42,162 nt of DNA from Deltaproteobacteria bacterium RIFOXYD12_FULL_57_12 (GTDB taxonomy: Bacteria; Desulfobacterota; Desulfobulbia; Desulfobulbales; BM004). The stretch spans positions 1 to 42,162 of the forward strand of contig MGTE01000047.1 of assembly GCA_001799275.1 (NCBI GenBank). Direction: 5' to 3'. A program made the translations under genes and the position numbers. This document shows, in pieces, positions 1,488 to 26,468 of this stretch (position 1 is the stretch's first letter; each line of letters opens with the position of its first letter). The notes under the pieces were generated by a model. It was not told the DNA's origin. It saw only the letters and a list, made by a program, of their open reading frames with translations, and ran no database searches.

Positions 1488-1521
1488 AAGCCGTCGGTCT
1501 TCATTGATCGGCGGTTTTTTT
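1488..1521 (+). terminator. Hairpin plus T-run before the Rad52-like gene
   Basis: AAGCCGTCG pairs with CGGCGGTT with one bulged G, then a run of seven T. The stem is moderate. It ends 38 nt before the ATG at 1559, which has its own AAGGAGG. Confidence 0.5.
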
Positions 1522-1558
1522 CGTCTCATCACTCTATCAATCGCAAGGAGGAAACGCC

Positions 1559-2188
1559 ATGAAAAAAGAACTGTTGGAACAACCCTTCAGCGCCGAGGAA
1601 ATCAAACAACGTGACGGCAATTTCGGCCAGACCCTGGAGTACGTCCCCGGCCACATTGTCATCGAACGTCTGAACCAGGCATTCGAAAGCCTCTGGTCCT
1701 TTGAAATCGTCAGGCACGAAGTCCAGGAGGACGAGGTCATCGTCATCGGCAGGCTGTCCGCCGAGGGCATCGTTAAAACCCAGTTCGGCAGCAGCAGGAT
1801 TACACGCGCCAAAGAGACAGGGGAGATTATCAGCCTCGCCGACGACCTGAAATCCGCCGCCACGGATGCGCTCAAAAAGTGCGCCACTCTGTTGGGGGTC
1901 GGGCTTCATCTTTACGCCGACAAGCCCGCGTCCCGCAGCACCGAGACCGCTGGCCATAAAGGCAACGGTGACGATAAGAGCCAACCCGACAACGGAGGAA
2001 ATGGCGGCAATGGAAAAAACGGTCGCCTCAGCGCCAAACAGCACTCCTTCCTGATGCGTTTGGCAAACGAGAAGGGCATCACCCGCAAAGAGCTGAACGA
2101 TCAGTGCGTGAGCACCTACGGCTCGGTGATCGACTACCTGACCCGGCAGAATGCATCCGCCCTGATCGAGAACATGCTGGCGCAATGA
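1559..2188 (+). CDS. Rad52/Rad22-like single-strand annealing protein
   Basis: The 209-aa protein has a Rad52_Rad22-type N-terminal domain (about 1-120). Its most telling stretch is SLADDLKSAATDALKKCA followed by TLLGVGLHLY, which matches the family's conserved helix. A Gly/Asn/Asp-rich linker (about 135-155) leads to a small helical C-terminal domain. Such proteins coat ssDNA and anneal complementary strands, like phage Bet/Erf proteins. Immediately downstream is a Cas4/RecB-like nuclease, so the two probably form a Red-like recombination pair carried by the island. The start is fixed by AAGGAGG ahead of the ATG. It is flanked on both sides by hairpin-type terminators. Confidence 0.85.
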   Translation: MKKELLEQPFSAEEIKQRDGNFGQTLEYVPGHIVIERLNQAFESLWSFEIVRHEVQEDEVIVIGRLSAEGIVKTQFGSSRITRAKETGEIISLADDLKSAATDALKKCATLLGVGLHLYADKPASRSTETAGHKGNGDDKSQPDNGGNGGNGKNGRLSAKQHSFLMRLANEKGITRKELNDQCVSTYGSVIDYLTRQNASALIENMLAQ

Positions 2189-2216
2189 CCGGCAAAGCAC
2201 CGCACCAACCATATTG

Positions 2217-2250
2217 GAGGGGATGGCAGAAATGCCGTCCCCTCTTTTCG
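2217..2250 (+). terminator. Strong hairpin terminator between Rad52-like and nuclease genes
   Basis: GAGGGGATGGCA pairs with TGCCGTCCCCTC over 12 bp (one G-T pair) around a GAAA loop, followed by TTTTCGTTT. It ends 27 nt before the next ATG, leaving space for a Shine-Dalgarno but hardly for a promoter. Confidence 0.85.
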
Positions 2251-2276
2251 TTTAACCCGTAATCCGGAGGTACCCC

Positions 2277-3101
2277 ATGAAACAAGCCTTACAGCCATTT
2301 CAGGAAAATCTGCACATCTCGCACAGCCAGATCTTCTGCTATCTGGCCTGTAGCCTGAAATACAAACTCCAGTACGTGGAACAACGTCCAAAGGAGCGGA
2401 TCAGCCTGGCTCTTCCCTTTGGCCGTGCCATTCACCAGTCGATCGAGCGTTACTATCGCTCCCTGATGGACGATGGGACGATTGTTTCGCTCGCCCTCAT
2501 GGAAACCCTGTTCGAGGAAAGCCTGCTGCTGGAACTGGACAACTCCGAGGTGCCAGTCATCTTCAAGAACGAGGCGCCGGATACTGACAGCGCCATCGCC
2601 ATGGGCAAGGACATGCTCAAGGCCTTCCATGAAAACATCGACCTGGCCGGCATGGAGATCGTTGCTGTCGAGCTGCCCCTGTCCGCCCCGCTTTACACCG
2701 ATTGCGGCGAGAAGACGGATATCAATCTCATTGGTGTCATAGACCTGCTCCTGAAAGACGCTGCCGGCCATTATCTCGTGGTCGACAACAAAACCAGCAA
2801 ACAGAAGAAGTCGCAGGATGCGGTGGATGACGATCTGCAGATGACCGCCTACTCCTATTTGTTGGCTGCAAACGGTTATGTGTTTCCCCGCGCTGAGGTC
2901 AACTGCCGGTTCGACGTACTCCGGAAGCTGAAAACACCAACCCTGGAGCATTACTTCACCAGTCGAACCGCGGAGAGCCGGAGGCGCTTCGCTAAAATCG
3001 CCAACAGTGTGCTGGCCGCCATCGAGCAAAGAATCTTCATCCCGGTCAGAGGGTGGCTCTGTTCAGACTGTGGCTACTCTGACGCCTGCGCCAAGTGGTA
3101 G
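2277..3101 (+). CDS. Cas4/RecB-like PD-(D/E)XK nuclease with Fe-S cysteines
   Basis: 274 aa. Family marks in order: N-terminal cysteine(s) C21/C25 (FCYLACS); FGRAIHQSIERYY carrying the conserved H; GVIDLLL with the first catalytic Asp; VVDNKTSK with the D-x-K pair; then C262, C265 and C271 (WLCSDCGYSDACAKW). One N-terminal plus three C-terminal Cys is the typical [4Fe-4S] arrangement of Cas4/AddB-type nucleases. It is predicted to resect DNA ends and supply ssDNA to the Rad52-like partner encoded just before it. There are no cas1/cas2 genes or repeats nearby, so a CRISPR adaptation role is unlikely. A GGAGGT before the ATG fixes the start. Confidence 0.85.
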   Translation: MKQALQPFQENLHISHSQIFCYLACSLKYKLQYVEQRPKERISLALPFGRAIHQSIERYYRSLMDDGTIVSLALMETLFEESLLLELDNSEVPVIFKNEAPDTDSAIAMGKDMLKAFHENIDLAGMEIVAVELPLSAPLYTDCGEKTDINLIGVIDLLLKDAAGHYLVVDNKTSKQKKSQDAVDDDLQMTAYSYLLAANGYVFPRAEVNCRFDVLRKLKTPTLEHYFTSRTAESRRRFAKIANSVLAAIEQRIFIPVRGWLCSDCGYSDACAKW

Positions 3102-3129
3102 CAGCACCATTCAATCGCATTTATTCGGC

Positions 3130-3170
3130 CGCCATGACGCACTCCCGCGTTGCGGCGGCTTTTCTTTAAA
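3130..3170 (+). terminator. Strong hairpin terminator between nuclease and DUF932 genes
   Basis: GCCGCC...GACGC (3130-3142) pairs with GCGTTGCGGCGGC (3149-3161), with one mismatch and two G-T pairs and a 6-nt loop, followed by TTTTCTTT. It ends about 23 nt before the ATG of the next gene. Confidence 0.85.
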
Positions 3171-3192
3171 CCCATTCATAAGGAGAATTGTC

Positions 3193-3978
3193 ATGTCAAA
3201 CGCAACGCTTATCGGCAGCAACAAAGTATCAGAGGCAGAGGTTATCCAGGTCCCGGCGGTTCCTTTTACAAGGACATTCAAGCCGGTTCATCACCGGGAA
3301 GTTATCAACGCCATCAGGACCGGCATCAGTGCGATCGGCCTCGAAGTGGTCAAAAGCGAATACGTCCTAGCCCGTGAAGGGATGCAGATGTTTGGCGTCT
3401 GGGATCTTGCGACTGGAAATGACGAACTCTGCTGGTCCATCGGTCTGCGCAACTCTATGGACAAGTCTATGGCCTTGGGCATTACGGCTGGTACGCGCGT
3501 CTATGTCTGCTCGAACCTCGCCTTTGATGGGGAGTTTGTCGAATTGCGGCGCCATACCAAAGGGTTGACCCTAGAGGAACTGGAGTTCATGGCCTACCGT
3601 GCCATCCGCACCTTGGTAAACAGGCTGACCAGATTCCAGGCCTGGCACGAGGGATTGAAGCGTTTTGATCTGCCGGAGCCAGACGCCAAGGTTCTGCTGG
3701 TCGAGATGCTGACCCAGAGCGTATTCCCGGCCAGCAAATTCCCGATGTTCCAAAATCTCTATTTCGGCGGCGTTTACGATCAGACCCTCTGGGGATTGCA
3801 TGCGGCGACAACTCAGGTTCTGAAAGAGGCCAACCTGCTCACTCTGCCCAAGAAGAACAGGGTGCTGAATGCGATTCTCAACCAGCACATCGAGGGGATC
3901 AACGCGGAACTGCCGTCCTCCCTGGGTGATTTCTACGAAAGCCGCGCCCGGCTCGCCATCCCGGAAACGACGAACTGA
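3193..3978 (+). CDS. DUF932 family protein
   Basis: 261 aa. It resembles the DUF932 family of phage, plasmid and ICE proteins: an FTRTFKPVHH segment, a central IGLRNSMDKSMALG followed by a G-x-x-V-x-V-C-S-N motif (GTRVYVCSNLAF), and a helical C-terminal half. The biochemical function is not established. Its persistence beside annealase and exonuclease genes in mobile elements suggests a role in recombination or replication of the element. I chose the ATG at 3193, preceded by AAGGAGA, over upstream in-frame starts that would run through the hairpin at 3130. Confidence 0.7.
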   Translation: MSNATLIGSNKVSEAEVIQVPAVPFTRTFKPVHHREVINAIRTGISAIGLEVVKSEYVLAREGMQMFGVWDLATGNDELCWSIGLRNSMDKSMALGITAGTRVYVCSNLAFDGEFVELRRHTKGLTLEELEFMAYRAIRTLVNRLTRFQAWHEGLKRFDLPEPDAKVLLVEMLTQSVFPASKFPMFQNLYFGGVYDQTLWGLHAATTQVLKEANLLTLPKKNRVLNAILNQHIEGINAELPSSLGDFYESRARLAIPETTN

Positions 3979-4001
3979 AGCAATCAATCAACACTGTCAG
4001 G

Positions 4002-4036
4002 AAGCCCGCCGGATTGACCTCTGGCGGGCTTTCTGC
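4002..4036 (+). terminator. Hairpin after DUF932 gene
   Basis: AAGCCCGCC (4002-4010) pairs perfectly with GGCGGGCTT (4023-4031) across a 12-nt loop. The T-tract is short (TTTCTGCATTTT). It ends about 21 nt before the next ATG, repeating the hairpin-SD-gene layout of this cassette. Confidence 0.65.
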
Positions 4037-4056
4037 ATTTTATGGAGGGCAAGACC

Positions 4057-4248
4057 ATGACCAACAAGGAAAAGAGCAGATACGGCGAACCAGAGGTGTT
4101 AAAAGAAATACTGCGAAGGACGTTATGCGGCAAAAAATTCCGTTTAGACTGCGGTCACCACGTAACCTTTGGCCAGGTGCTCGGCAATGACGTGACTATC
4201 CGCAATGGCAAGAGATTCAAAATCATCTGCGCCCAGTGTGGCTATTAA
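4057..4248 (+). CDS. Small zinc-ribbon-like protein
   Basis: About 63 aa. Two cysteine motifs, DCGHHVTFG and ICAQCGY, give C, H, H and C-x-x-C ligands suitable for one zinc ion. The rest is basic. I start it at ATG 4057, because GGAGGG at 4044-4049 is correctly spaced for it; the ATG at 4042 overlaps that site. It lies 11 nt upstream of the acidic protein gene, so the two are probably co-translated. No family assigned. Confidence 0.65.
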   Translation: MTNKEKSRYGEPEVLKEILRRTLCGKKFRLDCGHHVTFGQVLGNDVTIRNGKRFKIICAQCGY

Positions 4249-4259
4249 GGAGGTGCGCC

Positions 4260-4571
4260 ATGTGTGGTTTCGACGAGTTTGATCCGGACGATCTGGACGA
4301 TCTGGACGATCCGGACGATGATTTTCAGGAGGATCTGTTCGAGGATATCGAGCCCGAGGTTGATGGGTTTGAGATGGATGACGAGGCGGAAGAACCCGCT
4401 ACGCCAGAACCAGATGCCCCTGAATCAGGACTGGATTTTCAGGAGATTTTCATCCTTGGCAGCATGATCGCCGGCCAGGCATACGAAGAGGCACTGGATG
4501 AAGCAGAGGAAAAGAAGAAAAAAGAGGAAGAGCCCGAGAACGGCTTCGGTTCAGAAGAAGACTTTGACTAA
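4260..4571 (+). CDS. Highly acidic small protein with internal repeats
   Basis: 103 aa, dominated by Asp and Glu. Its N-terminal third is built from a 9-bp tandem repeat encoding D-(P/L)-D. Residues about 60-75 (DFQEIFILGSMIAGQA) are the only hydrophobic stretch, possibly an amphipathic helix, and a Lys/Glu-rich coiled segment follows. AAGGAGGT precedes the ATG, so translation is likely strong. Charge and context (mobile element, near restriction-type genes) fit a DNA-mimic or anti-restriction protein, but that is only a guess from composition. Confidence 0.7.
   Translation: MCGFDEFDPDDLDDLDDPDDDFQEDLFEDIEPEVDGFEMDDEAEEPATPEPDAPESGLDFQEIFILGSMIAGQAYEEALDEAEEKKKKEEEPENGFGSEEDFD
4281..4319 (+). 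repeat. 9-bp tandem repeat (GATCYGGAC x4)
   Basis: Four consecutive GATCCGGAC/GATCTGGAC units plus a final GAT, in frame, encode the alternating D-P-D/D-L-D tract of the acidic protein. Copy number changes would keep the reading frame. Confidence 0.9.
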
Positions 4572-7961: not shown

Positions 7962-11297
<3,336 letters not shown>

Positions 11298-11311
11298 GGT
11301 TCCTCCGTTAT

Positions 11312-11449
11312 TCAGTGATCCATATTCTCTGCCGGTAGCCATTCGCAGGCAGGCTGCACAATGATGCCAGGTGCAGCGGGCGCCAGCGAGGCATTGATTT
11401 TATAGAGCAGCACCAGGTGCAAAACCGGAATTTCGGCAGGGGGAATCAT
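11312..11449 (-). CDS. 45-codon ORF between DUF1156 and DUF499 genes
   Basis: Opens 12 bp after the DUF1156 stop, with GGAGG overlapping the end of that gene and spaced 8 nt from the ATG, and closes 14 bp before the DUF499 ATG. The peptide begins MIPPAEIPVLHLVLLYKIN, is half hydrophobic, and ends CEWLPAENMDH. Tight packing and a good ribosome site support translation. It could be a small subunit, a coupling ORF or a gene remnant. No family recognised. Confidence 0.5.
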   Translation of the reverse strand: MIPPAEIPVLHLVLLYKINASLAPAAPGIIVQPACEWLPAENMDH

Positions 11450-11461
11450 CGGCGTTGCCTC

Positions 11462-14365
11462 CTACCTCTTAAACAGTCCGGGCTGTTCGGGTTTGTGTGG
11501 CACCTCGACGTTTTGGCTCAGGCGGCCGATCTCCGGCCAGCTCTGCACCAGGCCGTTGTAGGCCATGGCCTCGTTGGCGCGCTTTTTACGCTCGCAAAGG
11601 GTATAGAGGCGGTAGCAAAGTTCGCGGGCCGTCTCGGCCTGACTGCCGAGCTTGGCCACCAGCGCTGCCGCTGCACTTTCGCCGCCGGTTTCAAGAACGC
11701 GGATCAGATGATGCACCATTTCCCAGACTGTAAGGCGGTTATCGGTGGTTGGGTCCCAGTCGATGGGTAGTTCGGCGGGTTTCAGAAGCCGCACCTTGCC
11801 GGCCTTGGAAACCAGAATGCCAGCCTCGACCAGACCAGCCACAGCGGTATTTTTAGACTTGGAAAGCTGCTCGGCAACACCGTAATCACCCTCGGCAAAA
11901 CCGGTCTGCTCGAACCAGGTCAACGCCCAGCGGGTGTCGGCGTCAAAGTCGCCTTCCTGCTCGGCCAGGGCTTCATCGAGGGTTTGATTGATCAGCGCCA
12001 GCGCGGCGCGCACCGAGAGCAGCTTACCGTCGGCATCGAGCACCTTGACGTAGCGAGTATAGACTGCCATGCCAGGGCCAATGGCCGCCTGAGCCAGGTC
12101 AACCGGCGCGATGTTGCCGGCTTGTAAATGCGCCAACGCCTGCGGCAACTCGGCTTTGAGAGCGGCAACGAGCTCACGACGAGTGGCAGTGGGCGCGTTG
12201 ATTGAACGCTTGCGGCAGACAAGAACGATGCTGGACGCGAGAGAATTAGTGCCAGAAGCAATCATGCGACCCGCACCTTCCGTCCGCATCGGCCAGGTTC
12301 CTGTAATAGCAAAGCCAGCGAGGACTACCGCGTCAAGAAAAGTATCCCATCCGGTGTTAGTAGTGCCGTCGGCTTCGTCGCTCTCGGACTGTTTAAAAGC
12401 GTAATAAATGGTAACCGGAAAGGCCGGATGCGATTGTTCGGCTAACCGTTGCATAGCCTTAGTCATACCGTCGAGAAAAAACGCCTCCGCCTTTTCCTTG
12501 CCGCCGTGACGGTGTGTAGTTGCTACCAGCTCCTCTGCCTTAGGCACAGCGAGCGTGGAAAAAAGATCCGGGAAAACCTGTCTCAATGAGCGTCGAAGCC
12601 AGACGTAAAAGAAATCGGAGAGGTCCGCGTATCCAATATTGTCGTAGTATGGCGGGTCAGTACTGAAAACAAAGGATTTGCCACCGTCCGAAGCAGTTTG
12701 CGCATCGTGCTGAGTCGCAAATCCTTTGGCACTTGGGGTAGCCACATCCAGATAGTTGCTAACCGAATTAGTACAAGTGAGTACATCACCGCTAGACTTA
12801 CCAAGGGGGTTACATTCAGCGAAGTCCCATGTCATCGCAAGTGCTTGGCGCGGCATACAGTCCCGAAGCGCATTATCTTTAGGAAGCCACGAGGTCAAAT
12901 TTGAACCGTAATAGACCATTCGATCAAGCACACAGGCTAGGTAAATACAAATCGCATCAGCATAAGCCGTGGCACCATTTCCCCCTTTATCTAAAGGTTT
13001 GCCATCGTCGTGGAGACCTAATTTAATGGCATCGGTCTTCACAAGCTCCCGCACTTCCTGCACCAGGTCGGAGAATGTAGTCAGTGACACAAGTTGGCGG
13101 GGGGTAAAGAGCTTGGCCCATGATGTAAGTCCGTAGGGCGTACAATTCCCACCAGTCATTCTGGTTGCAATATCTCCCTCTGGACACCATTTGGGTTTTT
13201 CCCCCAGCGCTACCGATTCATGTTCTGGCGTTGGCGCGATGTAAACTCGGCCACGTGCTCCTTCAGCCACAATGGCCATGAGCCGAGCCCCCATTCTCCC
13301 GGCCTTTCCCTCTGCTTTGATGTAGCCACCAGAGATGGGAGTGCCAGACATGAGGCAAGCGAAGTTCGCTCCCACCAGCTTTGTACCGGCCTTTACTATT
13401 GCTAAATCGTTTGGTTTGCCGACCTTTATTGTGAAACGATAGCTACCACCTTCAATTACTGGCACTACATAAGCCTCTTTGCCGACCTTACTCGAAAGCA
13501 TGAAGGTCGCGGCAAGCGGCACATCAATGCTGGCAAAGGCCGGGTTAGGGCTTTTCACGGTGCGCGCCCACAACCAGGCAATTACCGTCAGCTTCTGACC
13601 GACGTATTTCTCCAGATCAGGACGCTCCTGGGCCATTGCCGCCGTGACCTCAACCTTGGGGTAGAGATGACCGATACGTTTCTCGGCCTCGTCGCGCATC
13701 CAATGGCCGTAATGACGCACGTCCGTGGCCAATCCCTGGGCACCGTGCCATTCATGTTTGAATAAATCACCTGTACCCCGGCCTGCTTTATCGCCTGCTG
13801 GGGGAGTGGGATGTACCGGTGGTTTACCCGCGAACTTGGGAGGAATCTCGATCGTCGCCTTGTTGATCATTACCGCGACTGGGTTGAGGTCGCTGGCATG
13901 GCTTTCCAGACCTAACCACTGCGCAGAGAGCGGCAGACTGCCACTTCCAGCGAACGGATCACAGAATGCCGGCAGCTTATTCCGGTCGAAAAGATCCTTT
14001 GCCTGCGGATGGTCGGCAAACTCGGCACAAGCCCGCCTCCAGCTTTGCCAGATCTCGGTTCGTGCTTTCTCAAGCACTTCTTGGTTGCTTGTATTATCCC
14101 ACTTCACCAGCTCTTCGATGATTCCGAACAGCCGCTGGCGCTCTTTCTCTTGTTTCTTCTCAGTGGGAAACAAATCCGGCAAACTTGATGGGTCATCAAC
14201 CATCTGCGCAAAGATCACTGCCCTGGCAGCGGCAAGAGGTCGCTGCGCCCACCACTTATGGAACGAAGTCGGCCAACCCTTTGGCGCCTTCTGCTTACGA
14301 TGGAGCGATTCCTTATTTATCGCATCCAGCGGCAAAGCGACTTCGATGAGTTTCTTAACTGTCAT
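11462..14365 (-). CDS. DUF1156 adenine-specific DNA methyltransferase
   Basis: 967 aa. The N-terminal DUF1156 signature is clear (LIEVALPLDAINKES, then PTSFHKWWAQRPLAA). SAM-binding motif I is DPFAGSGSLPL (about 136), with LESHASDLNPVAV after it; catalytic motif IV is TDPPYYDNIGYADL (about 570). The DPPY motif predicts N6-adenine (or N4-cytosine) methylation, marking self DNA. Length and layout match complete family members. AGAAGGAAA precedes the ATG. It is part of one minus-strand run with the MBL gene (26 bp upstream) and DUF499 gene downstream. No separate specificity subunit is visible, so recognition must lie in this protein or its partners. Confidence 0.88.
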   Translation of the reverse strand: MTVKKLIEVALPLDAINKESLHRKQKAPKGWPTSFHKWWAQRPLAAARAVIFAQMVDDPSSLPDLFPTEKKQEKERQRLFGIIEELVKWDNTSNQEVLEKARTEIWQSWRRACAEFADHPQAKDLFDRNKLPAFCDPFAGSGSLPLSAQWLGLESHASDLNPVAVMINKATIEIPPKFAGKPPVHPTPPAGDKAGRGTGDLFKHEWHGAQGLATDVRHYGHWMRDEAEKRIGHLYPKVEVTAAMAQERPDLEKYVGQKLTVIAWLWARTVKSPNPAFASIDVPLAATFMLSSKVGKEAYVVPVIEGGSYRFTIKVGKPNDLAIVKAGTKLVGANFACLMSGTPISGGYIKAEGKAGRMGARLMAIVAEGARGRVYIAPTPEHESVALGEKPKWCPEGDIATRMTGGNCTPYGLTSWAKLFTPRQLVSLTTFSDLVQEVRELVKTDAIKLGLHDDGKPLDKGGNGATAYADAICIYLACVLDRMVYYGSNLTSWLPKDNALRDCMPRQALAMTWDFAECNPLGKSSGDVLTCTNSVSNYLDVATPSAKGFATQHDAQTASDGGKSFVFSTDPPYYDNIGYADLSDFFYVWLRRSLRQVFPDLFSTLAVPKAEELVATTHRHGGKEKAEAFFLDGMTKAMQRLAEQSHPAFPVTIYYAFKQSESDEADGTTNTGWDTFLDAVVLAGFAITGTWPMRTEGAGRMIASGTNSLASSIVLVCRKRSINAPTATRRELVAALKAELPQALAHLQAGNIAPVDLAQAAIGPGMAVYTRYVKVLDADGKLLSVRAALALINQTLDEALAEQEGDFDADTRWALTWFEQTGFAEGDYGVAEQLSKSKNTAVAGLVEAGILVSKAGKVRLLKPAELPIDWDPTTDNRLTVWEMVHHLIRVLETGGESAAAALVAKLGSQAETARELCYRLYTLCERKKRANEAMAYNGLVQSWPEIGRLSQNVEVPHKPEQPGLFKR

Positions 14366-14391
14366 TACAAATATTTCCTTCTCAACTTCTC

Positions 14392-15246
14392 TTAATCGGA
14401 GGTAACCGACAAATATTTCCCTGCCTGCCCCACACCAACCTCAATCTCAATATGCCCGTCAGATCGTGTGGTAAGGCAAGCTCTCGTTTTCTCGTTGCGA
14501 GCACAACGGCTGCTGATCGGCAATCCCTCGGCGTGATATGTATAACGGTTCCTCGCGTCTGTATCTTGCACTCGGGCGTCACTGATTACGCAAAGTCGTG
14601 GTGCCCCTTTGTTAAGGGCAGTAAAAAGCTCCGGACAATATCCTGATTCTCGCCCATGATGACTAGCCATGAAAACGTGTGCACCTGAAACCATGCGCAC
14701 AAAATCAGGTTGCTTCAGCAATTCCTTCCAAGAAGGTGGTTCATTATCGCCCGGAATAACAATGCGGACACCGAGATATTCAAAAACCACTACTCCGCTA
14801 TGGTTGTTGATATTTGATGTTCCGCAGTTCCTGGATGCGAATCTTTTTATGGTCACTCCCCCAGTGGCTTTGGGGTCACCAACAAGCTCCCCGTCCGGGA
14901 TTGGATGGATATACCGATCCGACAAATCGAAATAGGCACCTAAGTTTTCGTGATCCGCGACTTGATTGGCTGCATAAACATCAGATTCAGATAACCACTT
15001 TGGTCGCCAAAGTTGACGAACCTTGAAATTAAGATCGTTGACAAGAGGCATCTCGTCGATGTGATCACCGTGTGGGTGGGTTATCACCAATGAGTCGATC
15101 GTCTTAGTATGTTTAGCCAACCATTCCAGGGGTGAATGATCAGTTGAGGTGCCCAAATCAATCACAACAACTTTTCCATCCGGGGTAAAGGCATGCACTG
15201 CCTGGCCATGGCCAACGTTGTGAATGATGATTTTCAAAGGCGACAT
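14392..15246 (-). CDS. ComEC-like metallo-beta-lactamase fold hydrolase
   Basis: 284 aa. The metal motif is THPHGDHIDEM (H57, H59, D61, H62). Further ligands are probably in NNHSGVVVFEYLG, VIPGDNE and MASHHGRESGY. This H-x-H-x-D-H plus SHHG pattern is that of the ComEC/Rec2-type MBL group, many of which act on nucleic acids or phosphoesters. There is no signal peptide or membrane helix. The ATG lies 3 nt after the stop of the four-TM gene and follows AGAGGGATAA, so the two are translationally linked. A nuclease or phosphodiesterase acting with the membrane partner is likely but unproven. Confidence 0.8.
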   Translation of the reverse strand: MSPLKIIIHNVGHGQAVHAFTPDGKVVVIDLGTSTDHSPLEWLAKHTKTIDSLVITHPHGDHIDEMPLVNDLNFKVRQLWRPKWLSESDVYAANQVADHENLGAYFDLSDRYIHPIPDGELVGDPKATGGVTIKRFASRNCGTSNINNHSGVVVFEYLGVRIVIPGDNEPPSWKELLKQPDFVRMVSGAHVFMASHHGRESGYCPELFTALNKGAPRLCVISDARVQDTDARNRYTYHAEGLPISSRCARNEKTRACLTTRSDGHIEIEVGVGQAGKYLSVTSD

Positions 15247-15249
15247 CGA

Positions 15250-15858
15250 TTATCCCTCTTTCTGGTGAACCGCTTTATCCGGATGAAGCGAGCTCTTCTT
15301 GTGGAGGTACCGTGCAGACGTTAGAAATGCCGCAACCGCCACCGATATGGCCACATTAGTACCGATACAAATATTGGTTGCACTGGGCAGCGTCGTGACA
15401 TTCAAAGCGAATACGAACAGGCCTGCAAAAAGCCCCACCTGGAGCGCTACCATCGCTTGCTGGACGGTATGGCTGCTGTACAATTTGAAGGCGTTGAAAG
15501 TGGTATCCAGATACATTTGGTTATCAGTGAAACTTTGGGCCACGGTCCGAAGGAATTCGGCCCGAATCGCATTGAGCTGCCGTGCCGGGTAGACGAAATA
15601 AAGCCTCGTTTGGGTTATTGCAGCCAGAATGGATACCAGACCGAGCATGGTTATAATAAGACAGATGACGGCGGCGGCATTCCAAAATACCGGGGTGATA
15701 TTAGCCCCCAGCCCATAAATTCCGAGCAGCATAGTCGGTACTCCACTTGATATGCTGACCGCATACTTCATGAGCGCGTGATGGCGCTCGTCGTAATACT
15801 TAACGAGCCCCATGCATTGTTCATATTCCAGCTTCAAAAAATCATTCATCTGGTCCAC
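15250..15858 (-). CDS. Four-transmembrane protein of unknown function
   Basis: 202 aa with hydrophobic helices at about 30-50, 58-80, 135-155 and 163-182, and a long hydrophilic loop (about 82-132, containing YPARQLNAIRAEFL). The N-terminal 28 residues are charged. GTG 15858 follows CTGGAG; ATG 15849 is an alternative. It lies 35 bp after the DUF262 gene and almost touches the MBL gene. Small multi-TM proteins are common membrane-disrupting effectors in defence loci, and the loosely SLATT-like layout would fit, but I cannot assign a family. Confidence 0.65.
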   Translation of the reverse strand: MDQMNDFLKLEYEQCMGLVKYYDERHHALMKYAVSISSGVPTMLLGIYGLGANITPVFWNAAAVICLIITMLGLVSILAAITQTRLYFVYPARQLNAIRAEFLRTVAQSFTDNQMYLDTTFNAFKLYSSHTVQQAMVALQVGLFAGLFVFALNVTTLPSATNICIGTNVAISVAVAAFLTSARYLHKKSSLHPDKAVHQKEG

Positions 15859-15893
15859 AGTCGAGAACTCCAGCTTCTTGTCCCGCTAACCGA

Positions 15894-17597
15894 TTATCCC
15901 TCACCATTCAGGTCAGCCTCAAGGTCGGTGGCTTTCTTAACCCCGGTCACATTCTGAATCTCCTGCCATAATCTCTCCTGCCGCCAAACCAGGTATGGCT
16001 CGTAATCATTGGCGAGTAATGGCGAGTCAGCGCCGACCGGCAGGATGTGCGAGGTTAAGACGCTGTCATAAGGGAAACCGGAAGTCTTGCGAATATCGGC
16101 CAGATAGTCGGAAGGGGCGCGGTCACTGATCATCTGATTGGTAGTCCGGTCGATTAGGGTACGGTTGAGAATACAGTCGCGATTTCGGGACAGCGTGACC
16201 CCTTTGCGCTCAAGATAGGCTGCCGGGAATACATGGTGATCGTCGATACCTTCCTGGGTCATGATCTTGCCAGTAATGACCGCCTGGGTGTGGAAGTCGC
16301 GGGCGCCACCGCGCAGGATCAGGCAAATTGTCCCACGATATATCGACCGCTGCCGAGGTGTTACGTCCCGCAATGCCCGAGGATCGAACCTGAAAGTATC
16401 AACCGACTCCGGCAATCCGACGCCGATGATCCACTGGAGGATTTCCACAACATCCTTGGCCGATTTGCTGTTGGGTGAGCTTTCATAAACCTGACCAAAG
16501 ACCGCGCACCAGAACCAGCGCTTGATCTTCTCTCGCTGAGCGCCGGCCTCGGCCGTCTTCGGATTTCCGGCCTTGGCCATAACGGCGGCAAGTGGCGGCA
16601 GCATGGTTTGATAAGGCAACCATTTGGGCAGCATTACCTTGCAGTCATCCCGCAGGATTTCCAGGCCGGCGGCCAGTCCGACCACAACCTTGTCCCACCA
16701 TTCAGTGATGTCGGATGCCTTCATGTTAAGCACGTCGCTGCGCTTGCAAGACGGAGCCTTACGACAGGCCAAGGAGATCCCCTGGAGGACGTAATAGGGA
16801 TCAACCTCGAAATCTTCAATAATCGGATACTCGGCCAGAGCCTTGTCCCATAAGTCACGGAGTTTGATGTTCTGCGGCCAGAAGCGGGCGGTCAGAAGTT
16901 CGAACACGCTGAGCTTCACGCCAGTGCGGTTCAAGGTTTCAAATATGGTGCAGAGCGCGTCCGGCTCGGTCTCGTCGGACAGGGTAACCACCGGAAAGTG
17001 GTAGTCATCTATGGTATGGATCCACTTCTCCTCTACGCCCTCAAGTGCATCCTCAAGGGCAATGCGTTTCTTGTCATCCAACTGGCGGGCGACGTTGCGA
17101 CTCCATTTGCCGAATCCACCGGCGCCACCTTTCAGTACGGAAAGGGGCAAGAGAAGTTCCTTGGCCTGAGTCTCAAAATCCTCCCTGTCCTTGGCCCATT
17201 TGGTGGTCGCCCTGACGTGGAAGATTGCATCTTCAAAGTCATCTCCGTCGATGAGCTTGCCAATGCTCAGGTAGTAGCGGTGCTCGCCGACCCCGTAGAA
17301 GGCCTGATAGAGGGAAGTGAGCCGCTGCTGACCATCCAGAACCAGGAATGTGTGCTTGGCGTCACCGAGAATGGGTGCCCCTTCAAACTCTCGGGCGGCA
17401 AAAACCCGCTTGGCATCGCGCACCCGTAGGATGCTACCGGCAGGGTAGTTGTTGGCGATCGAAACGATCAGCTCCTGCGTGGCCCCTGGCTCCCAGACAA
17501 AGTCACGCTGAAAATCTGGCAGAACGGAGGTCCGGTTGTGGACCTCTGACAGGAGATCTTTGAGGGCGCGGGGGTTGGTGTCTTCAAAGATGTTCAT
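15894..17597 (-). CDS. DUF262-DUF1524 (GmrSD-like) nuclease
   Basis: 567 aa. The N-terminal DUF262 domain shows LPDFQRDFVW and FLVLDGQQRLTSL (about residue 86), the ParB-like nucleotide-hydrolysing motif. The C-terminal DUF1524 HNH-type nuclease shows DDHHVFPAAYL (about 451) and CILNRTLIDRTTNQ. The same pair makes up type IV enzymes such as GmrSD and SspE-like effectors, which cut modified or unmodified phage DNA. AAAGGAAT precedes the ATG. A degraded copy of the start of this gene survives at 19869-19915, on the far side of RloAB. Confidence 0.85.
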   Translation of the reverse strand: MNIFEDTNPRALKDLLSEVHNRTSVLPDFQRDFVWEPGATQELIVSIANNYPAGSILRVRDAKRVFAAREFEGAPILGDAKHTFLVLDGQQRLTSLYQAFYGVGEHRYYLSIGKLIDGDDFEDAIFHVRATTKWAKDREDFETQAKELLLPLSVLKGGAGGFGKWSRNVARQLDDKKRIALEDALEGVEEKWIHTIDDYHFPVVTLSDETEPDALCTIFETLNRTGVKLSVFELLTARFWPQNIKLRDLWDKALAEYPIIEDFEVDPYYVLQGISLACRKAPSCKRSDVLNMKASDITEWWDKVVVGLAAGLEILRDDCKVMLPKWLPYQTMLPPLAAVMAKAGNPKTAEAGAQREKIKRWFWCAVFGQVYESSPNSKSAKDVVEILQWIIGVGLPESVDTFRFDPRALRDVTPRQRSIYRGTICLILRGGARDFHTQAVITGKIMTQEGIDDHHVFPAAYLERKGVTLSRNRDCILNRTLIDRTTNQMISDRAPSDYLADIRKTSGFPYDSVLTSHILPVGADSPLLANDYEPYLVWRQERLWQEIQNVTGVKKATDLEADLNGEG

Positions 17598-17631
17598 GAT
17601 GATTCCTTTTCTTTGGGTATTCGATAGGAGG

Positions 17632-18315
17632 CTATATTCCTTGTGAAGACTTATTTTTCAGGTCGCGCAGATATTCGATCAGTTGATGCATCTTGGTGGA
17701 TGGATTGTCACTGCCTGAGACTGTCACATGTTTCTCAAGCCGGATGGCGTGGGTAATGGCGTCCGGCAGTTTCCCCAGGAGGGAAGGGAAAAGGCCGATC
17801 GCGCCCTTGTCGTAGCCGGGGATGTGTCGTTTGAGGGTTTTGATGACCGAGTCGCAGATGGAGCCCGACCTGCCGGTGGAACCGAACGCCTTGGTGGTAT
17901 AGCCAAAATGCAAAAGAAGCCATATCTCAAAACAGGGAACCGAGGTGATGGCCCGAATGGAATCACCCTTGCTCAATCTCGCAGTCCGGATTCTTTCCAG
18001 TGCCTCATTATAGGTTGGGTGCCGGTCACGGTCAAAAACGCAGAAAACCCGGTTGTATTTTTTCTCTTTCCGGTACTCGGCCAAGGCATACTCGATAACA
18101 TTGCGAGGAGAAGACCCGCAATCATCACCGACGATTCTGATATTGGCGGTGCTCAGCTTGAAGGCGTCGCGGAGTTCCTGCAAATAGTTCGGTTCCGTCT
18201 TGCCCCCTTCACAGACGATCAACACCAGATCGTAGGGCGCGCGCTTTTGTGCCTCCCGGCACAGGGCTGCGACTTTTTTTGCTTTTCTTCGATGGAAGAG
18301 ATTGTCGGAACCCAT
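17632..18315 (-). CDS. rloB: RloB-like TOPRIM-related protein
   Basis: 227 aa. VLIVCEGGKTEPNYLQEL (Glu at about 36) and VFCVFDRDRHP (Asp at 95 and 97) match the E and D-x-D positions of RloB/AbiLii proteins, which share a TOPRIM-type metal centre. It is probably a nuclease set off by its ATPase partner. Its ATG overlaps the RloA stop as TGATG, so the pair is co-translated in near-equal amounts. ATPase plus TOPRIM pairs of this kind (RloAB, AbiL, PARIS) act in abortive infection; for this copy the role is inferred. Confidence 0.82.
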   Translation of the reverse strand: MGSDNLFHRRKAKKVAALCREAQKRAPYDLVLIVCEGGKTEPNYLQELRDAFKLSTANIRIVGDDCGSSPRNVIEYALAEYRKEKKYNRVFCVFDRDRHPTYNEALERIRTARLSKGDSIRAITSVPCFEIWLLLHFGYTTKAFGSTGRSGSICDSVIKTLKRHIPGYDKGAIGLFPSLLGKLPDAITHAIRLEKHVTVSGSDNPSTKMHQLIEYLRDLKNKSSQGI

Positions 18316-19583
18316 CAGGGGCGGGCCTCGCTGGTATAAGGCAAGGCGCCGTAACGGCCGTTGAGATACCCCTTTTGCAGGGCTTCTCCTGCCCTGGGTT
18401 TGAAATCGGTGAGAGGATAAAGTTGGCTGGCGTTTGCCTGGTCTTTATCGACAAACCAGACCTGGTCCCGTCGTACTAAATCCTGGTCCAGAAGAGAGGT
18501 GTCGTGAGTGGTGAAGATAAGCTGCCCGTTTGCCTGGTTTGTTTTGTTGTTATGAAACATGGAAAGCAGAAATCGCATGATCTTCGGATGCAGGCTGGTA
18601 TCCAGTTCATCGGCAAAAAGGATTCGGCCTTGGGTCAGAATGTCGAGCCAGGGGCCGGCATAGGCAAAGAGTTTGCGGGTGCCGTCAGACTCTTCCTCAA
18701 GCGGAAGAATTACTGGAGATTCTTCTCCTTTCACTGGATGAAGAAACCCCACACGCATCATCTTTTTGCCATCCATTTTTTGACGGATATCATCCTTCAA
18801 CGCCTCCGGCATATCGGATGGCAGATCTTCCACAGAAAACTCCTTGGTTTCCATCAAGATATCGGAGATGCTGATATCCGCTTCATTCATAAAGGCGAGG
18901 ATGCGCTTTTTCTTTTCATCGTTCTGGCATAACTTGATGCTGAAACCAGGATCGATCAACGTGCCGTGACCGATAATGTAGAGCCTCTGAAACCAGGTGA
19001 AGACCGGCTTGAGTTGCTCACTGTTCCATTGAATCGCAGTGGAAAGGAACAGTGCGTTGTTTCGGGTCATCTCCTGCCACTGCTTCTTGCGGCCGATAAA
19101 ACGGCTGCCAAAATACCATTGATAGTCGTTGCTCTCTGGCTGAAAAGTCCTTTCAAACCAGCGCTGGGCTCGTCCTCCCGGATAGGCTATCAGCCATTCG
19201 TTGGTCACCCTTTCTTTGGTGGCGGCAAAACCATACTGATAGCGGACACCTTCCTGGATGAACTGCACCTCGAACTCACTGGGATGGGATGCCCCAAGTT
19301 GATTGAACAGGAAGGGATTGACCGCGATCCCTTCTCCTTCCTGGTGTTCCTTGGCCGAGGAGACGACAAACTGCTTCACAAACCACATGGCGCGGATAAA
19401 GTTACTTTTCCCCCCGGCATTAGGGCCGTAAACCACCGCCGAACGGAGGAGCCGGGGCAGGCCGGAAACCGGACTTTCAAATGTGTTGCTCTCCAGCAGG
19501 TCTTTTTGAGGAGTCGCAGTCAGAGAAAGTTTCCGAGGCTCCCAAAAGGACCGAAAATTAGCAACACTGAATTCGATGAGCAT
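18315..19583 (-). CDS. rloA: RloA-like AAA ATPase
   Basis: 422 aa. It starts MLIEFSVANFRSF, the usual start of SMC/RecF-like AAA_15/AAA_21 ATPases. Walker A is VYGPNAGGKSNF (about 52); Walker B is RILFADELDTSLHP (about 322); the H-loop region is LIFTTHDTSLLD. It probably senses infection and controls RloB. I start at ATG 19583 because CAGGAG lies 7 nt upstream; an in-frame start at 19643 has no such site. The pair sits between the helicase and DUF262 genes at a visible insertion scar. Confidence 0.82.
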   Translation of the reverse strand: MLIEFSVANFRSFWEPRKLSLTATPQKDLLESNTFESPVSGLPRLLRSAVVYGPNAGGKSNFIRAMWFVKQFVVSSAKEHQEGEGIAVNPFLFNQLGASHPSEFEVQFIQEGVRYQYGFAATKERVTNEWLIAYPGGRAQRWFERTFQPESNDYQWYFGSRFIGRKKQWQEMTRNNALFLSTAIQWNSEQLKPVFTWFQRLYIIGHGTLIDPGFSIKLCQNDEKKKRILAFMNEADISISDILMETKEFSVEDLPSDMPEALKDDIRQKMDGKKMMRVGFLHPVKGEESPVILPLEEESDGTRKLFAYAGPWLDILTQGRILFADELDTSLHPKIMRFLLSMFHNNKTNQANGQLIFTTHDTSLLDQDLVRRDQVWFVDKDQANASQLYPLTDFKPRAGEALQKGYLNGRYGALPYTSEARP

Positions 19584-19734
19584 GGCAACACTCCTGGAAA
19601 AATGAAGGGGAAAAGATAAAATCCGGTCAGCACCGAATATCATTTCTCAACCTTCATACCCTGGCTTGTGCTAACTTTTCAAGCATTAAATGCAGAAAAT
19701 ATGAAAAATATAGCTTAAAATTGATTTTATGGTG

Positions 19735-19915
19735 TCGATTGCTTTGCCATGCCAAGGAGACTGGCAATCTCGAAATTGATATTGGTCACACCGAATCCCG
19801 GCTCCCGACAAAGTAGCGTTGGAAATCCGACAACACCATGATACGCGAGTGGGCCTCGGTCAAGAGGTGTCCTTGAGGGCGCGGGGGTGGTATATCCAAA
19901 TATGCTCATGATGGT
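19735..19915 (-). pseudogene. Recombination scar: DUF262 gene start fused to helicase 3'-end remnant
   Basis: 19869-19915 is a decayed copy of the start of the DUF262 gene at 17556-17602: it shares the GAGGGCGCGGGGGT core and TCATGATG around the ATG, with a 1-bp deletion that shifts the frame. Its ATG overlaps the helicase stop as ATGA. The following part (19738-19845) encodes CREPGFGVTNINFEIASLL, resembling the helicase C-terminus at 19910-19970 (QREPDFGAASVNYHFAELL). So this spot holds a second, broken helicase end and a second, broken DUF262 start, as expected if RloAB came in with homologous flanks. Confidence 0.75.
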
Positions 19916-22900
19916 TCTCCGGCCCTCTGCAACAATTCTGCAAAGTGATAGTTTACACTCGCCGCTCCGAAATCCGGCTCGCGCTGAAAGGGTTGGCGCA
20001 GGTAGTGGGCGCGGTGACTATCGTTGCCGGTGAACTCCACAATAGCGAGGATGAAGTCGTCGGGCTTATTGAGTGAGTAGAGAATTTCATTTTTGGTCAC
20101 CGTGATGGTCTGCGCTCCGGTAACTCGCCCCTTGACCTCGATGAAGCGCAGCTTGCCAGTACCGGGAACGCGACTCTCGATGTCGTAGCCAAGCTTATCA
20201 AACTCCCGATCCACGGGCTCAAATCCGAGGTTGCGCTCGATTTCCATGACGATGGCGCGGGCCTTGGCTGCTACAGCCAGGGTGTCAACAGGAGGTGACA
20301 TATCCTCCAACTGCCGCCCTGCCATGATGGCGAGCAATCCCATAGGCACCACCACCAGCCCGCCAAGGATGACCGGCGGTAGCGGAGAAATTTGAGTCTC
20401 GAGCCTGAGTTCGTCCAGCCGCTTCTGCAAACGTGCCTGCAGAATATCGGCCCGCTTGCGGGCTTCACCCGAGTTGAGCCGGGCATTGGGCTTGCCGGCT
20501 TGCTCCTGGAGTTTGAGCTGCTCGGCGCGATGATCCCAATAGGTGATCTCCTTGGTAAGCCGTTCCTTGACTGCCGCCTCGGTCTTTGAGAGCAGCTCCA
20601 GCCGGGGTTCCCGCACTTCCTTAAGGTGTTCAGGAACGACGTGGGCCACTGCGTACCCTTGGGCCTTTTGTTCCAACGCTCGGGTGATCCAGGAACATTC
20701 AGTGCGCTCAAGAATGGCATCCACGTCAGGCTCGTCCTTTTTCAACGGCCGATAATCCAGATAAGGGGCATAGTGGACGTGGCGAGTGTTGCCGTCGGCG
20801 TCAAGTTCGATATAGAGCATTTTTTTCGAGATGACGCGGCGCTCACCAGTGCGGGTAAGGCCTGCGTCCTGGATGGCATGCTCCAGATAGAACAGGACAC
20901 GGGGCCGAGTGCCGTGATCGTGCTCATCCACCAAAATGGTGCCCCGTTTGAGCAGGTCGCGGTGGCGCTCAAGAATCAGGTCGATAGCAGCATCGAGCAG
21001 CGGGTGGCCTGGACAGACAAAGGCGGCGAGCGGCTGACCCTGCGGTGCAATCAACGATTTCTCGAAGGCGATACGCTCGTAACGCGGCAGTACCGGTTCG
21101 CCCACACCAATGAGCCGGTCACGGTTGCGAATGGAGGCCGGAACGTGTGTGACCTCGTAACGCCGGGGCTCACGCTGCCTGACCGACCCACCCAACCGCT
21201 GAAAGGCTTCCTGGAAAAATGATTCAATATAGTGCGGCTGCAGCCGGCGGGCCTCGGCGCGTTCCATATCTTCACGGATGCGGTAAACGCGGCTCACGTC
21301 CATGGTGTCGTGGGCCAGTGCCCGGTCGTCGAGCAAATCCTGGAGATGGCTTCGGTCGAGGGTTTGGTCGAGAACAGTGGTAAGGTAGGCTTCTACCTCG
21401 GGGCGCTCGCCGTACCGGATCGCCTCGATCAGCAGCTCACGCAATGATTTGCCCTCAAACTGGAGCCTACCCAGAACATCGAACACCTGCCCGCCAAGGG
21501 CTTTCCGGGCCTCCTCAAGTTTTTCGAGCAGCTTGCGGTAAACATCGCCCTCCCTGGTTTCTTCGGCAATCAGGTTCCACAGGTGGCAAACCTCGGTCTG
21601 GCCAATACGATGGATGCGGCCGAATCGCTGTTCCAGGCGGTTTGGATTCCACGGCAGGTCATAGTTCACCATCAGATGGGCACGCTGAAGGTTGATACCC
21701 TCTCCCGCTGCATCGGTAGCAAGCAGCACCTGTACCTTTGGGTCGTGCCTGAATGACTCCTGCACCTTCAGGCGCTCCTCGCGTCCCATACCGCCATGGA
21801 TCATAACCACGGACTCCTTGCGACCAAGCAGGGTGGTGACGCGGCTCTCGAGATAATTCAGGGTGTCGCGGTGCTCGGTGAACAATACGAGTTTCTGGTG
21901 CGATGAGGGCTTCGGCCTGGGAATTTCCCCAGAACCATAAGGCGCCTGGGATTCAGCGACCTGATTTGATATGGCCGAAGGGGTGAAGATTTCGGTCAAC
22001 AGGCTGGCCAGTTCCCGCCACTTGGTATCCATGCCGCTACGACGTACGCCAAGGGCGAGCGACTCCAGGATTTCCAGGGTGGCGATCTCGACTTTCAATT
22101 CGCTAATGGTGCTGGCGGCGGTTGCCTGATCGAGGATCTCCTCCTCGACGGCCTCGACCTCATGGTCCGGCGCCTCTTCGAGATCCTCGACATCCTCAGC
22201 ATCAAATGCGCGAACAGCGGGGATAAATATCGAGGCAGCCTGGCCACCGCGTTGGAGCAATTCCAGCTCACGCAGCCGGCTTTCCAGTCGCTCCCGGCGA
22301 CGACGTAGGGATTGGTAAATTGCCTCGGGTGAGGAGGCAAGGCGGCGTTGCAGGATTGTAAGAGCGAAACCGACAGTACCTGCACGTTTGTCATTCTCGA
22401 GAGCTTCAGCGCGGTTGAACTCCTCGCGCACGTAGTTGGTGACCGCCTTGTATAGATGGGCCTCGGACGGTGAGAGTTTATACGGCACGGTATAGGCGAT
22501 ACGCTCGGGAAACAACGGCGTACCATCGAACTTGAGCAGCCGTTCCTTCACCATGCGGCGCATCAGGTCCGAGACATCCGTCACATGGACCCCGTCACGG
22601 AAACGACCCTCGAAACGGTCTCCGTCGAGCAGCGCCATGAACAGCTGGAAATCTGCTTCTTTGCCGTTGTGCGGTGTTGCCGTCATCAATAGAAAGTGCC
22701 GGGTGAGGGTTGCGAGGAGCTGCCCGAGTCGGTAGCGTTTTGTGTACTTCGTCTCACCACCGAAGACCGTCGCTGACATCTTGTGAGCCTCGTCGCAGAC
22801 CACCAGGTCCCAACGGCAATCCGGTACTCGGAGCTTCTGCTGCACATCTTCGTTGCGTGAGAGCTTGTCGAGGCGGGCGATTATCAGATTGGTTTCCAGG

Positions 22901-23487
22901 AACCAGTTCCCGGTGCGGGCGGCTTCGAGTTTGTCGTTGGTAAGTATCTCGAAGGGCAGGTGAAAACGACGGTACAGTTCATCCTGCCATTGTTCAGCAA
23001 GGCTACCAGGGCAGACGATAAGGCAGCGCTGCAAGTCTCCCCTGGCAATGAGTTCCTTGATGAGGAGGCCGGCCATGATGGTTTTCCCGGCACCGGGGTC
23101 GTCAGCAAGAAGAAAGCGGAGCGGCTGCCGTGGCAGCATGGCCTCATAGACCGCTGTGATCTGGTGCGGGAGAGGATCGACGAGCGAAGTATGGACAGCC
23201 AGCACCGGATCGAACAGATGCGCCAGGTGAATGCGTTGCGCCTCGGACACCAGACGGAACAGCGCCCCATCTCCATCAAAACTCCAGGGCCGGCCTTGCT
23301 CCACAATTTCGAGTCGTGGTTCATCGTGGCGGTAAAGCAGTTCGTTGGCAACTTTTCCTGAAGAAGTTTTGTATGTGAGCTCGAGTGCCTCGGAACCAAA
23401 CCACTGCACACTGACAACAGTCACCAGTGAGTCTGAAACGATGCCACGCACGGTGGCATTGGTCTGAAGTTGTTCGAGATTGATCAT
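19906..23487 (-). CDS. SNF2-family helicase with C-terminal DUF3883 domain
   Basis: 1193 aa. DNA-dependent ATPase core: PLPHQITAVYEAML (Q-motif region), Walker A DDPGAGKT (about 128), DEAHK box (about 229), LLMTATPHNGKEADF (motif III), and the C-terminal helicase lobe with DAAGEGINLQ and EQRFGRIHRIGQ (motifs V/VI). A long helical middle and tail lead to a DUF3883-type domain (about 1089-1185; FIEVKGR resembles the E-x-K of PD-(D/E)XK folds). The shape recalls the DrmD helicase of DISARM, but drmA and drmB are absent here. It is the first gene of the minus-strand locus. No strong Shine-Dalgarno precedes the ATG. Confidence 0.85.
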   Translation of the reverse strand: MINLEQLQTNATVRGIVSDSLVTVVSVQWFGSEALELTYKTSSGKVANELLYRHDEPRLEIVEQGRPWSFDGDGALFRLVSEAQRIHLAHLFDPVLAVHTSLVDPLPHQITAVYEAMLPRQPLRFLLADDPGAGKTIMAGLLIKELIARGDLQRCLIVCPGSLAEQWQDELYRRFHLPFEILTNDKLEAARTGNWFLETNLIIARLDKLSRNEDVQQKLRVPDCRWDLVVCDEAHKMSATVFGGETKYTKRYRLGQLLATLTRHFLLMTATPHNGKEADFQLFMALLDGDRFEGRFRDGVHVTDVSDLMRRMVKERLLKFDGTPLFPERIAYTVPYKLSPSEAHLYKAVTNYVREEFNRAEALENDKRAGTVGFALTILQRRLASSPEAIYQSLRRRRERLESRLRELELLQRGGQAASIFIPAVRAFDAEDVEDLEEAPDHEVEAVEEEILDQATAASTISELKVEIATLEILESLALGVRRSGMDTKWRELASLLTEIFTPSAISNQVAESQAPYGSGEIPRPKPSSHQKLVLFTEHRDTLNYLESRVTTLLGRKESVVMIHGGMGREERLKVQESFRHDPKVQVLLATDAAGEGINLQRAHLMVNYDLPWNPNRLEQRFGRIHRIGQTEVCHLWNLIAEETREGDVYRKLLEKLEEARKALGGQVFDVLGRLQFEGKSLRELLIEAIRYGERPEVEAYLTTVLDQTLDRSHLQDLLDDRALAHDTMDVSRVYRIREDMERAEARRLQPHYIESFFQEAFQRLGGSVRQREPRRYEVTHVPASIRNRDRLIGVGEPVLPRYERIAFEKSLIAPQGQPLAAFVCPGHPLLDAAIDLILERHRDLLKRGTILVDEHDHGTRPRVLFYLEHAIQDAGLTRTGERRVISKKMLYIELDADGNTRHVHYAPYLDYRPLKKDEPDVDAILERTECSWITRALEQKAQGYAVAHVVPEHLKEVREPRLELLSKTEAAVKERLTKEITYWDHRAEQLKLQEQAGKPNARLNSGEARKRADILQARLQKRLDELRLETQISPLPPVILGGLVVVPMGLLAIMAGRQLEDMSPPVDTLAVAAKARAIVMEIERNLGFEPVDREFDKLGYDIESRVPGTGKLRFIEVKGRVTGAQTITVTKNEILYSLNKPDDFILAIVEFTGNDSHRAHYLRQPFQREPDFGAASVNYHFAELLQRAGEPS

Positions 23488-26392: not shown

Positions 26393-26468
26393 TGGTGGGC
26401 CGTGAAGGAATCGAACCTTCAACCTACTGATTAAGAGTCAGGTGCTCTGCCAGTTGAGCTAACGGCCC
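26393..26468 (-). tRNA. tRNA-Lys (anticodon CTT), CCA encoded
   Basis: Full cloverleaf: acceptor GGGCCGT/ACGGCCC, D-arm GCTC-GAGC, anticodon loop CTCTTAA with anticodon CTT, variable loop, T-arm with GGTTCGATTCC, discriminator A, and genomic CCA. It aligns closely with the bacterial tRNA-Lys pattern. The 3' end faces the island and the decayed integrase, so this is the probable attachment site. If the island used the 3' part of this gene, the second att copy lies to the left of this window. Confidence 0.97.

Follow-up and report, generated by a model that had tools for sequence, protein, structure and literature searches.

Terminator-like hairpins before nearly every gene of an annealing protein-exonuclease cassette in Desulfobulbales

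Genes and hairpins of the cassette

The stretch of DNA analysed here (the window, 42,162 nucleotides) makes up a complete contig (G000:C47) in a draft genome. Adjacent genes for a single-strand annealing protein (SSAP) and an exonuclease identify an SSAP-exonuclease cassette, which runs to the contig edge and comprises five genes, all oriented rightward:

1559-2188, + strand: ssap, Rad52-type single-strand annealing protein (Pfam PF04098, E=1e-16)
2277-3101, + strand: exo, PD-(D/E)XK nuclease (PF12705, E=2e-32)
3193-3978, + strand: p3, DUF932-like protein, 53-64% identical in seven loci
4057-4248, + strand: sm63, small Cys/His-containing protein, present in all full cassettes
4260-4571, + strand: sm103, acidic protein, starting 11 nt past sm63, without a hairpin

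The DUF932 match of p3 is weak (E=0.002, under the cut-off). Close relatives were found neither for ssap in species genome contigs or plasmids nor for exo in viral contigs. Four hairpins, each given with its d'Aubenton-Carafa-type terminator score (d), lie ahead of the first four genes:

1491-1521, + strand: T0, before ssap; hairpin 1491-1514 followed by T7; d=41.5
2217-2248, + strand: T1, before exo; hairpin 2217-2244 followed by T4; d=48.5; homologous junction in five other loci
3128-3166, + strand: T2, before the DUF932-like gene; hairpin 3128-3159 followed by TTTTCTTT (T4CT3); d=33; stem covarying in seven loci
3998-4041, + strand: T3, before sm63; 16-bp hairpin 3998-4035 followed by an interrupted T-tract; d=32

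Each has the make-up of an intrinsic terminator, a G+C-rich stem with a U-tract directly behind it and not ahead of it, and when the window gaps were shuffled (200 dinucleotide shuffles of each) the observed score was never reached. The ATG lies 44, 32, 33 and 21 nt past the hairpin end for T0 to T3, respectively, and approximately 37, 28, 26 and 17-21 nt past the T-tract. An earlier note on this DNA had placed hairpins with T-tracts 21-38 nt before the ATGs, with room left for a Shine-Dalgarno sequence (SD) only; our measurements agree (21-44 nt from the hairpin end, about 17-37 nt past the T-tract), and between hairpin and ATG there is just the SD, which can be read directly from the sequence at each cassette ATG behind a hairpin. 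The same note spoke of every cassette gene. This holds for four of the five, because the 11-nt sm63-sm103 junction has no hairpin and sm103 (4260-4571) thus stands without one.

Three further features lie upstream of ssap:

1279-1313, + strand: box of 35 nt with TGGTC at its end; a further copy, 91% identical, at 261-295
1388-1398, + strand: conserved TATAGCCCCCC motif, the presumed transcription start region
1434-1456, + strand: strong SD and three-codon ORF, ATG CGT CAG TAG (Met-Arg-Gln-stop), by direct reading

The two copies of the 35-nt direct repeat (261-295 and 1279-1313) flank an NYN-domain gene (461-1267), the second copy carrying the TGGTC box. Six cassettes have a TGGTC(GA) box followed 85-87 nt downstream by a TATAG(C)CCC motif, which itself lies approximately 150-260 nt ahead of ssap and may act as a promoter despite having no good -35 element. 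Three cassettes share a 14-nt CATNAAAAGCATAGTGGT motif ahead of ssap; with one mismatch at most, this motif has two further matches, apparently unrelated, in 253 genomes of the order. The upstream region is kept across cassettes even where these differ in their annealing protein: in a comparison of the window with L032-L036, the N-terminal domain of this protein has been swapped, being of Rad52 type in the window and G065 and different (Erf-like) in the others, and a C-terminal tail (RLSxKQ...) is common to the cassettes. The SD of the three-codon ORF is consensus-like (AGGAGGTGATC) and the ORF is located just upstream of the ssap terminator; it would represent a vestigial module or a leader peptide.

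The window cassette is bordered by an Hma-type defence system on the minus strand (7962-23487), in which GmrSD-like and AbiLi-like genes are interspersed; a tRNA-Lys gene is found at 26393. The Hma genes are:

7962-11342, - strand: HmaC
11462-14365, - strand: HmaB methylase
19906-23487, - strand: HmaA helicase

In three genomes, cassette-bearing islands adjoin tmRNA genes (L034, 1616-3502; L040, 14618-14793; L111, 1797-2158). In L034, a tyrosine integrase and an excisionase adjoin the cassette island. No transfer genes were noticed in an unsystematic look.

Conservation of the hairpin-gene order

The cassette belongs to marine bacteria of the sulfur cycle, and relatives of it occur in Desulfobulbales, for example in Desulfopila sp. 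IMCC35008 and Desulfogranum marinum, and the homologous cassettes compared were those of G065, G068, G103 (two), G217, G122 (two) and L047. The family order is ssap-exo-(sm74)-p3 (DUF932-like)-(sm120; DUF2958-like)-sm63-acidic gene, with whole modules gained or lost among relatives (sm74, sm120) and a swap of the DUF932-type module in L047. Looking for the hairpin-SD-gene order in these elements gave a positive answer: at 33 of 33 scored junctions in nine loci a terminator-like hairpin (d 13-49) was present, with its end 19-42 nt upstream of the ATG. Since G103 and G122 each hold two related copies, these junctions are not independent of one another. Scoring covered the junctions upstream of exo, sm74, p3, sm120 and sm63, leaving aside overlapping, gapless or post-sm63 junctions. 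In 400 kb of a Desulfopila genome the same layout was found in 3 of 228 codirectional gene pairs (Fisher p ~1e-38 against 33/33), or in 2 of 48 pairs with a gap of 50-120 (p ~1e-20). A mere host habit is rejected by this background, and such junctions are rare in the remaining parts of the same elements as well. The terminator-before-gene layout is conserved in the relatives.

Spacing between hairpin and ATG is very constant for a given downstream gene (22-27, 29-32 or 33-42 nt). The window is without sm74 and sm120, yet has exactly one hairpin at each junction that remains up to sm63. In one of the two G103 cassettes (G103b; L035), a frameshift or stop disrupts sm74, between exo and p3, but both flanking hairpins are intact; in G122 the sm63-type hairpin stayed with sm63 after the upstream gene had changed. 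The absence of hairpins from related cassettes, which the earlier note had named as evidence against its reading, is encountered in part: the ssap-exo hairpin is missing in G068, where the genes overlap, and in L048, where the gap is 14 nt, L040 has a weak stem at this position, and an outlying relative, the Desulfomonile plasmid pDESTI.01, has no hairpin. The window, G068, L040 and L049 alone have a true terminator in front of ssap, the others having a hairpin without a T-tract or none.

Terminator character and the passage of transcription

Over the family junctions, T residues occupy on average 6.2 of the 8 nt 3' of the stem, as against 2.1 of the 8 nt 5' of it. When the family hairpins were compared with terminators at convergent gene ends of the host genome, a small reference (n=10), neither score, stem energy nor U-tract differed (medians, family versus convergent ends: d, 34 and 33; nT, 4.99 and 4.97). 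Weak, non-terminating stems are not supported by this comparison, since the strength equals that of the convergent-end terminators. The stem downstream of exo has changed in a compensatory manner, as a conserved intrinsic terminator should: in seven loci 97.6% of the cells are paired and four pairs are changed on both sides, and none of 500 shuffles matches either the paired percentage or the covariation score. Covariation of the stem downstream of p3 is weakly positive (66/500 shuffles, with four sequences only). The window hairpins thus look like real terminators, not generic stems, and would be expected to terminate in vivo.

These data bear on the idea that the genes came singly, as SD-gene-terminator units, and that the terminators are passive remnants of this accretion with no regulatory role. 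Whole modules do come and go (sm74, sm120 and the DUF932-type swap in L047), but passive terminators within an operon should decay, and both the compensatory changes and the 33/33 retention speak against it; we hold this explanation to be highly improbable.

A search of 33 family junctions for a sigma-70-like promoter with its start past the hairpin yielded nothing above shuffles (mean p 0.76); only one of the 33 post-hairpin stretches had a promoter score greater than 6 (consensus = 16.7). With neither room nor signal for a promoter after the hairpin, an earlier promoter must cross it, and so transcription of each gene behind a hairpin must read through one or more predicted terminators. In this respect the earlier note, according to which transcription must read through, is upheld by the geometry. 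The genes in question appear to be in use. For sm63, which sits behind three to five hairpins, dN/dS is 0.03-0.06 (two paralog pairs), and values range from 0.03 to 0.15 over sm63, sm73/74, p3 and sm120, where measurable. This suggests that the downstream cassette genes are used; sm63, given its low dN/dS despite the preceding hairpins, is presumably expressed. Stops conserved directly before genes, with no room for a new start, mean that the cell must somehow override them.

The best explanation, to which we give about an even chance, is processive antitermination from the ssap leader. The hairpins would be genuine intrinsic terminators placed behind almost all genes of an SSAP-exonuclease cassette acquired by horizontal transfer, and a single promoter region upstream of ssap, around 1306-1398, would drive the whole. 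RNA polymerase would cross the terminators only if modified at or near the ssap promoter, and this requirement would leave stray transcription unable to turn on single genes. What would be a single transcription unit does contain several intrinsic terminators without later promoters, the arrangement expected for processive antitermination. Translational attenuation by a ribosome finishing the upstream gene was considered and set aside, as a stop-to-hairpin distance of about 20-55 nt would put the stem beyond the ribosome footprint.

The search for an antiterminator gene of the NusG, Q or Antiterm kind was negative. There is no NusG paralog in four relatives, G065, G103, G217 and G122 having one housekeeping NusG each; the window's draft genome returned not even the housekeeping NusG and is hence uninformative on paralogs. 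No homologue of the antiterminator proteins Antiterm and Phage_antitermQ was found. The sm63 product was rejected as an antiterminator, its AlphaFold model being of low confidence (pLDDT 62) and without a fold match. The leaders have no family match in Rfam and no consistent match to a boxA-like motif, and their folding is not unusually structured (z of -0.2 to -2.5 versus shuffles). The antitermination that the earlier note offered as one of two readings has on its side the terminators, the lack of inner promoters and the conserved layout, and against it the lack of a NusG paralog, of a Q or Antiterm homologue, of an Rfam leader and of unusual leader structure, as well as the relatives in which the ssap-exo hairpin is missing or weak. 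No trigger could be seen, and none of the findings relates to DNA damage. The factor for antitermination would have to be something other than a recognisable NusG paralog or a Q-type protein.

Simple leakiness could suffice, because several U-tracts are interrupted (TTTCTATTT, TTTTCTATTT, TTTGCTG and ATTTCTATTT). Each terminator would then stop part of the polymerases and, in series, they would make expression fall from ssap to the small genes with no antiterminator involved. Interruptions in many of the tracts (as in TTTTCTATTT, TTTGCTG and ATTTCTATTT) and the failure to find an antiterminator fit this explanation; however, the hairpin scores equal those of gene-end terminators in the host genome, and a succession of three to six such elements would leave the last genes almost silent, even though these are under strong purifying selection. 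We regard leakiness as rather doubtful.

It is also conceivable, if less probable still, that a long mRNA is cut between genes and that the hairpin protects the 3' end of a unit or insulates the next ribosome binding site. Such a role in processing or stability would accord with the very constant hairpin-to-ATG spacing of each downstream gene and with an SD whose pairing probability is slightly lower than when the upstream sequence is shuffled (0.59 versus 0.68), but it would have no need of a U-tract restricted to the 3' side, and no conserved cleavage motif was noticed in an informal look.

The proposed antitermination can be compared with several known systems. Like lambda Red and RecET-type cassettes, the window has an SSAP gene beside an exonuclease gene, here of Rad52-type and PD-(D/E)XK type, respectively. 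For the lambda red genes, N antitermination deals with a few terminators; there is no hairpin for each gene. On plasmid pLS20, the conAn system bypasses more than 20 intrinsic terminators (PMC8955417). The likeness lies in a mobile-element operon with many inner intrinsic terminators crossed from one promoter; the differences are that pLS20 is Gram-positive, has more than 20 terminators and uses a known protein, ConAn1, together with conAn2 RNA (PMC8955417), whereas no homologue or factor is recognised in the window, where a hairpin precedes nearly each gene of a recombination cassette. In Tn916, an integrative element, the cis-acting RNA canT lets transcription past inner terminators (PMC11658703). 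There, a 452-nt canT fragment showed activity, and tests were made of terminators T1-T3 (PMC11658703); the leader here, in contrast, is about 150-260 nt long and its structure is not beyond chance.

A sister cassette and per-gene RNA control

Hairpins of another kind stand before most genes of a sister SSAP-exo-SSB cassette, which comprises an Erf/Rad52-like SSAP, another exonuclease, SSB, DUF6094, RadC and others, and was found at L123-L133, L154-L161, L164 (pPRO1) and L165 (pSD), including the window's own genome (C81, L154). The sister element consists of a 5' hairpin closed by CCC..GGG, behind which lies an arm with complementarity to two partners, the 5' arm of that hairpin and the SD/start region (as in GTCTTGTCCC with GGAGACAAGATC). 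Pairing with own as opposed to swapped partners gave z=-10.3 for 42 non-redundant sister elements, z=-7.6 in an independent set from other taxa and z=-3.1 in plasmids pPRO1 and pSD, against z ~0 in the window family and in the host background. The element has no family match in Rfam. As judged from these pairings, it is likely an undescribed per-gene translational switch with two states, the 3' arm pairing with either the 5' arm or the SD/start.

That the window hairpins might likewise switch translation through SD sequestration is scarcely plausible. Such elements do exist in the sister cassettes (z=-10.3), but in the window family neither the 3' arm nor the upstream stretch shows a preference for its own SD over other SDs (z=+2.0 in one analysis and +0.5 in another), so that the upstream arm specific to its own SD, the mark of such a switch, is lacking; moreover, SD pairing is 0.59 as against 0.68 with shuffled sequence, and sequestration by these hairpins was rejected. 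Taken together, the two cassette types show that hairpins ahead of the SDs of individual genes are a recurrent feature of SSAP cassettes in Desulfobacterota, the window's kind being the terminator kind.

If the terminators work and are jointly bypassed, the window would represent processive antitermination at an unusual density, about one stop per gene; to our knowledge, no case of processive antitermination has been described in Desulfobacterota. With four hairpins within 3 kb, the window cassette is a compact test case. The stops, if this is true, would guard a recombination cassette whose misplaced expression could do harm. Judging by the sister elements, SSAP cassettes seem to have repeatedly been brought under per-gene RNA control. 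We tentatively propose, as a possibility and not as the probable case, that SSAP-exonuclease cassettes in integrative elements of Desulfobacterota have each gene controlled separately, through two unrelated RNA solutions: terminators at nearly every gene with an undescribed form of antitermination (no NusG paralog, Q or Rfam leader) in the window type, and bistable SD-sequestering elements before most genes in the sister type.
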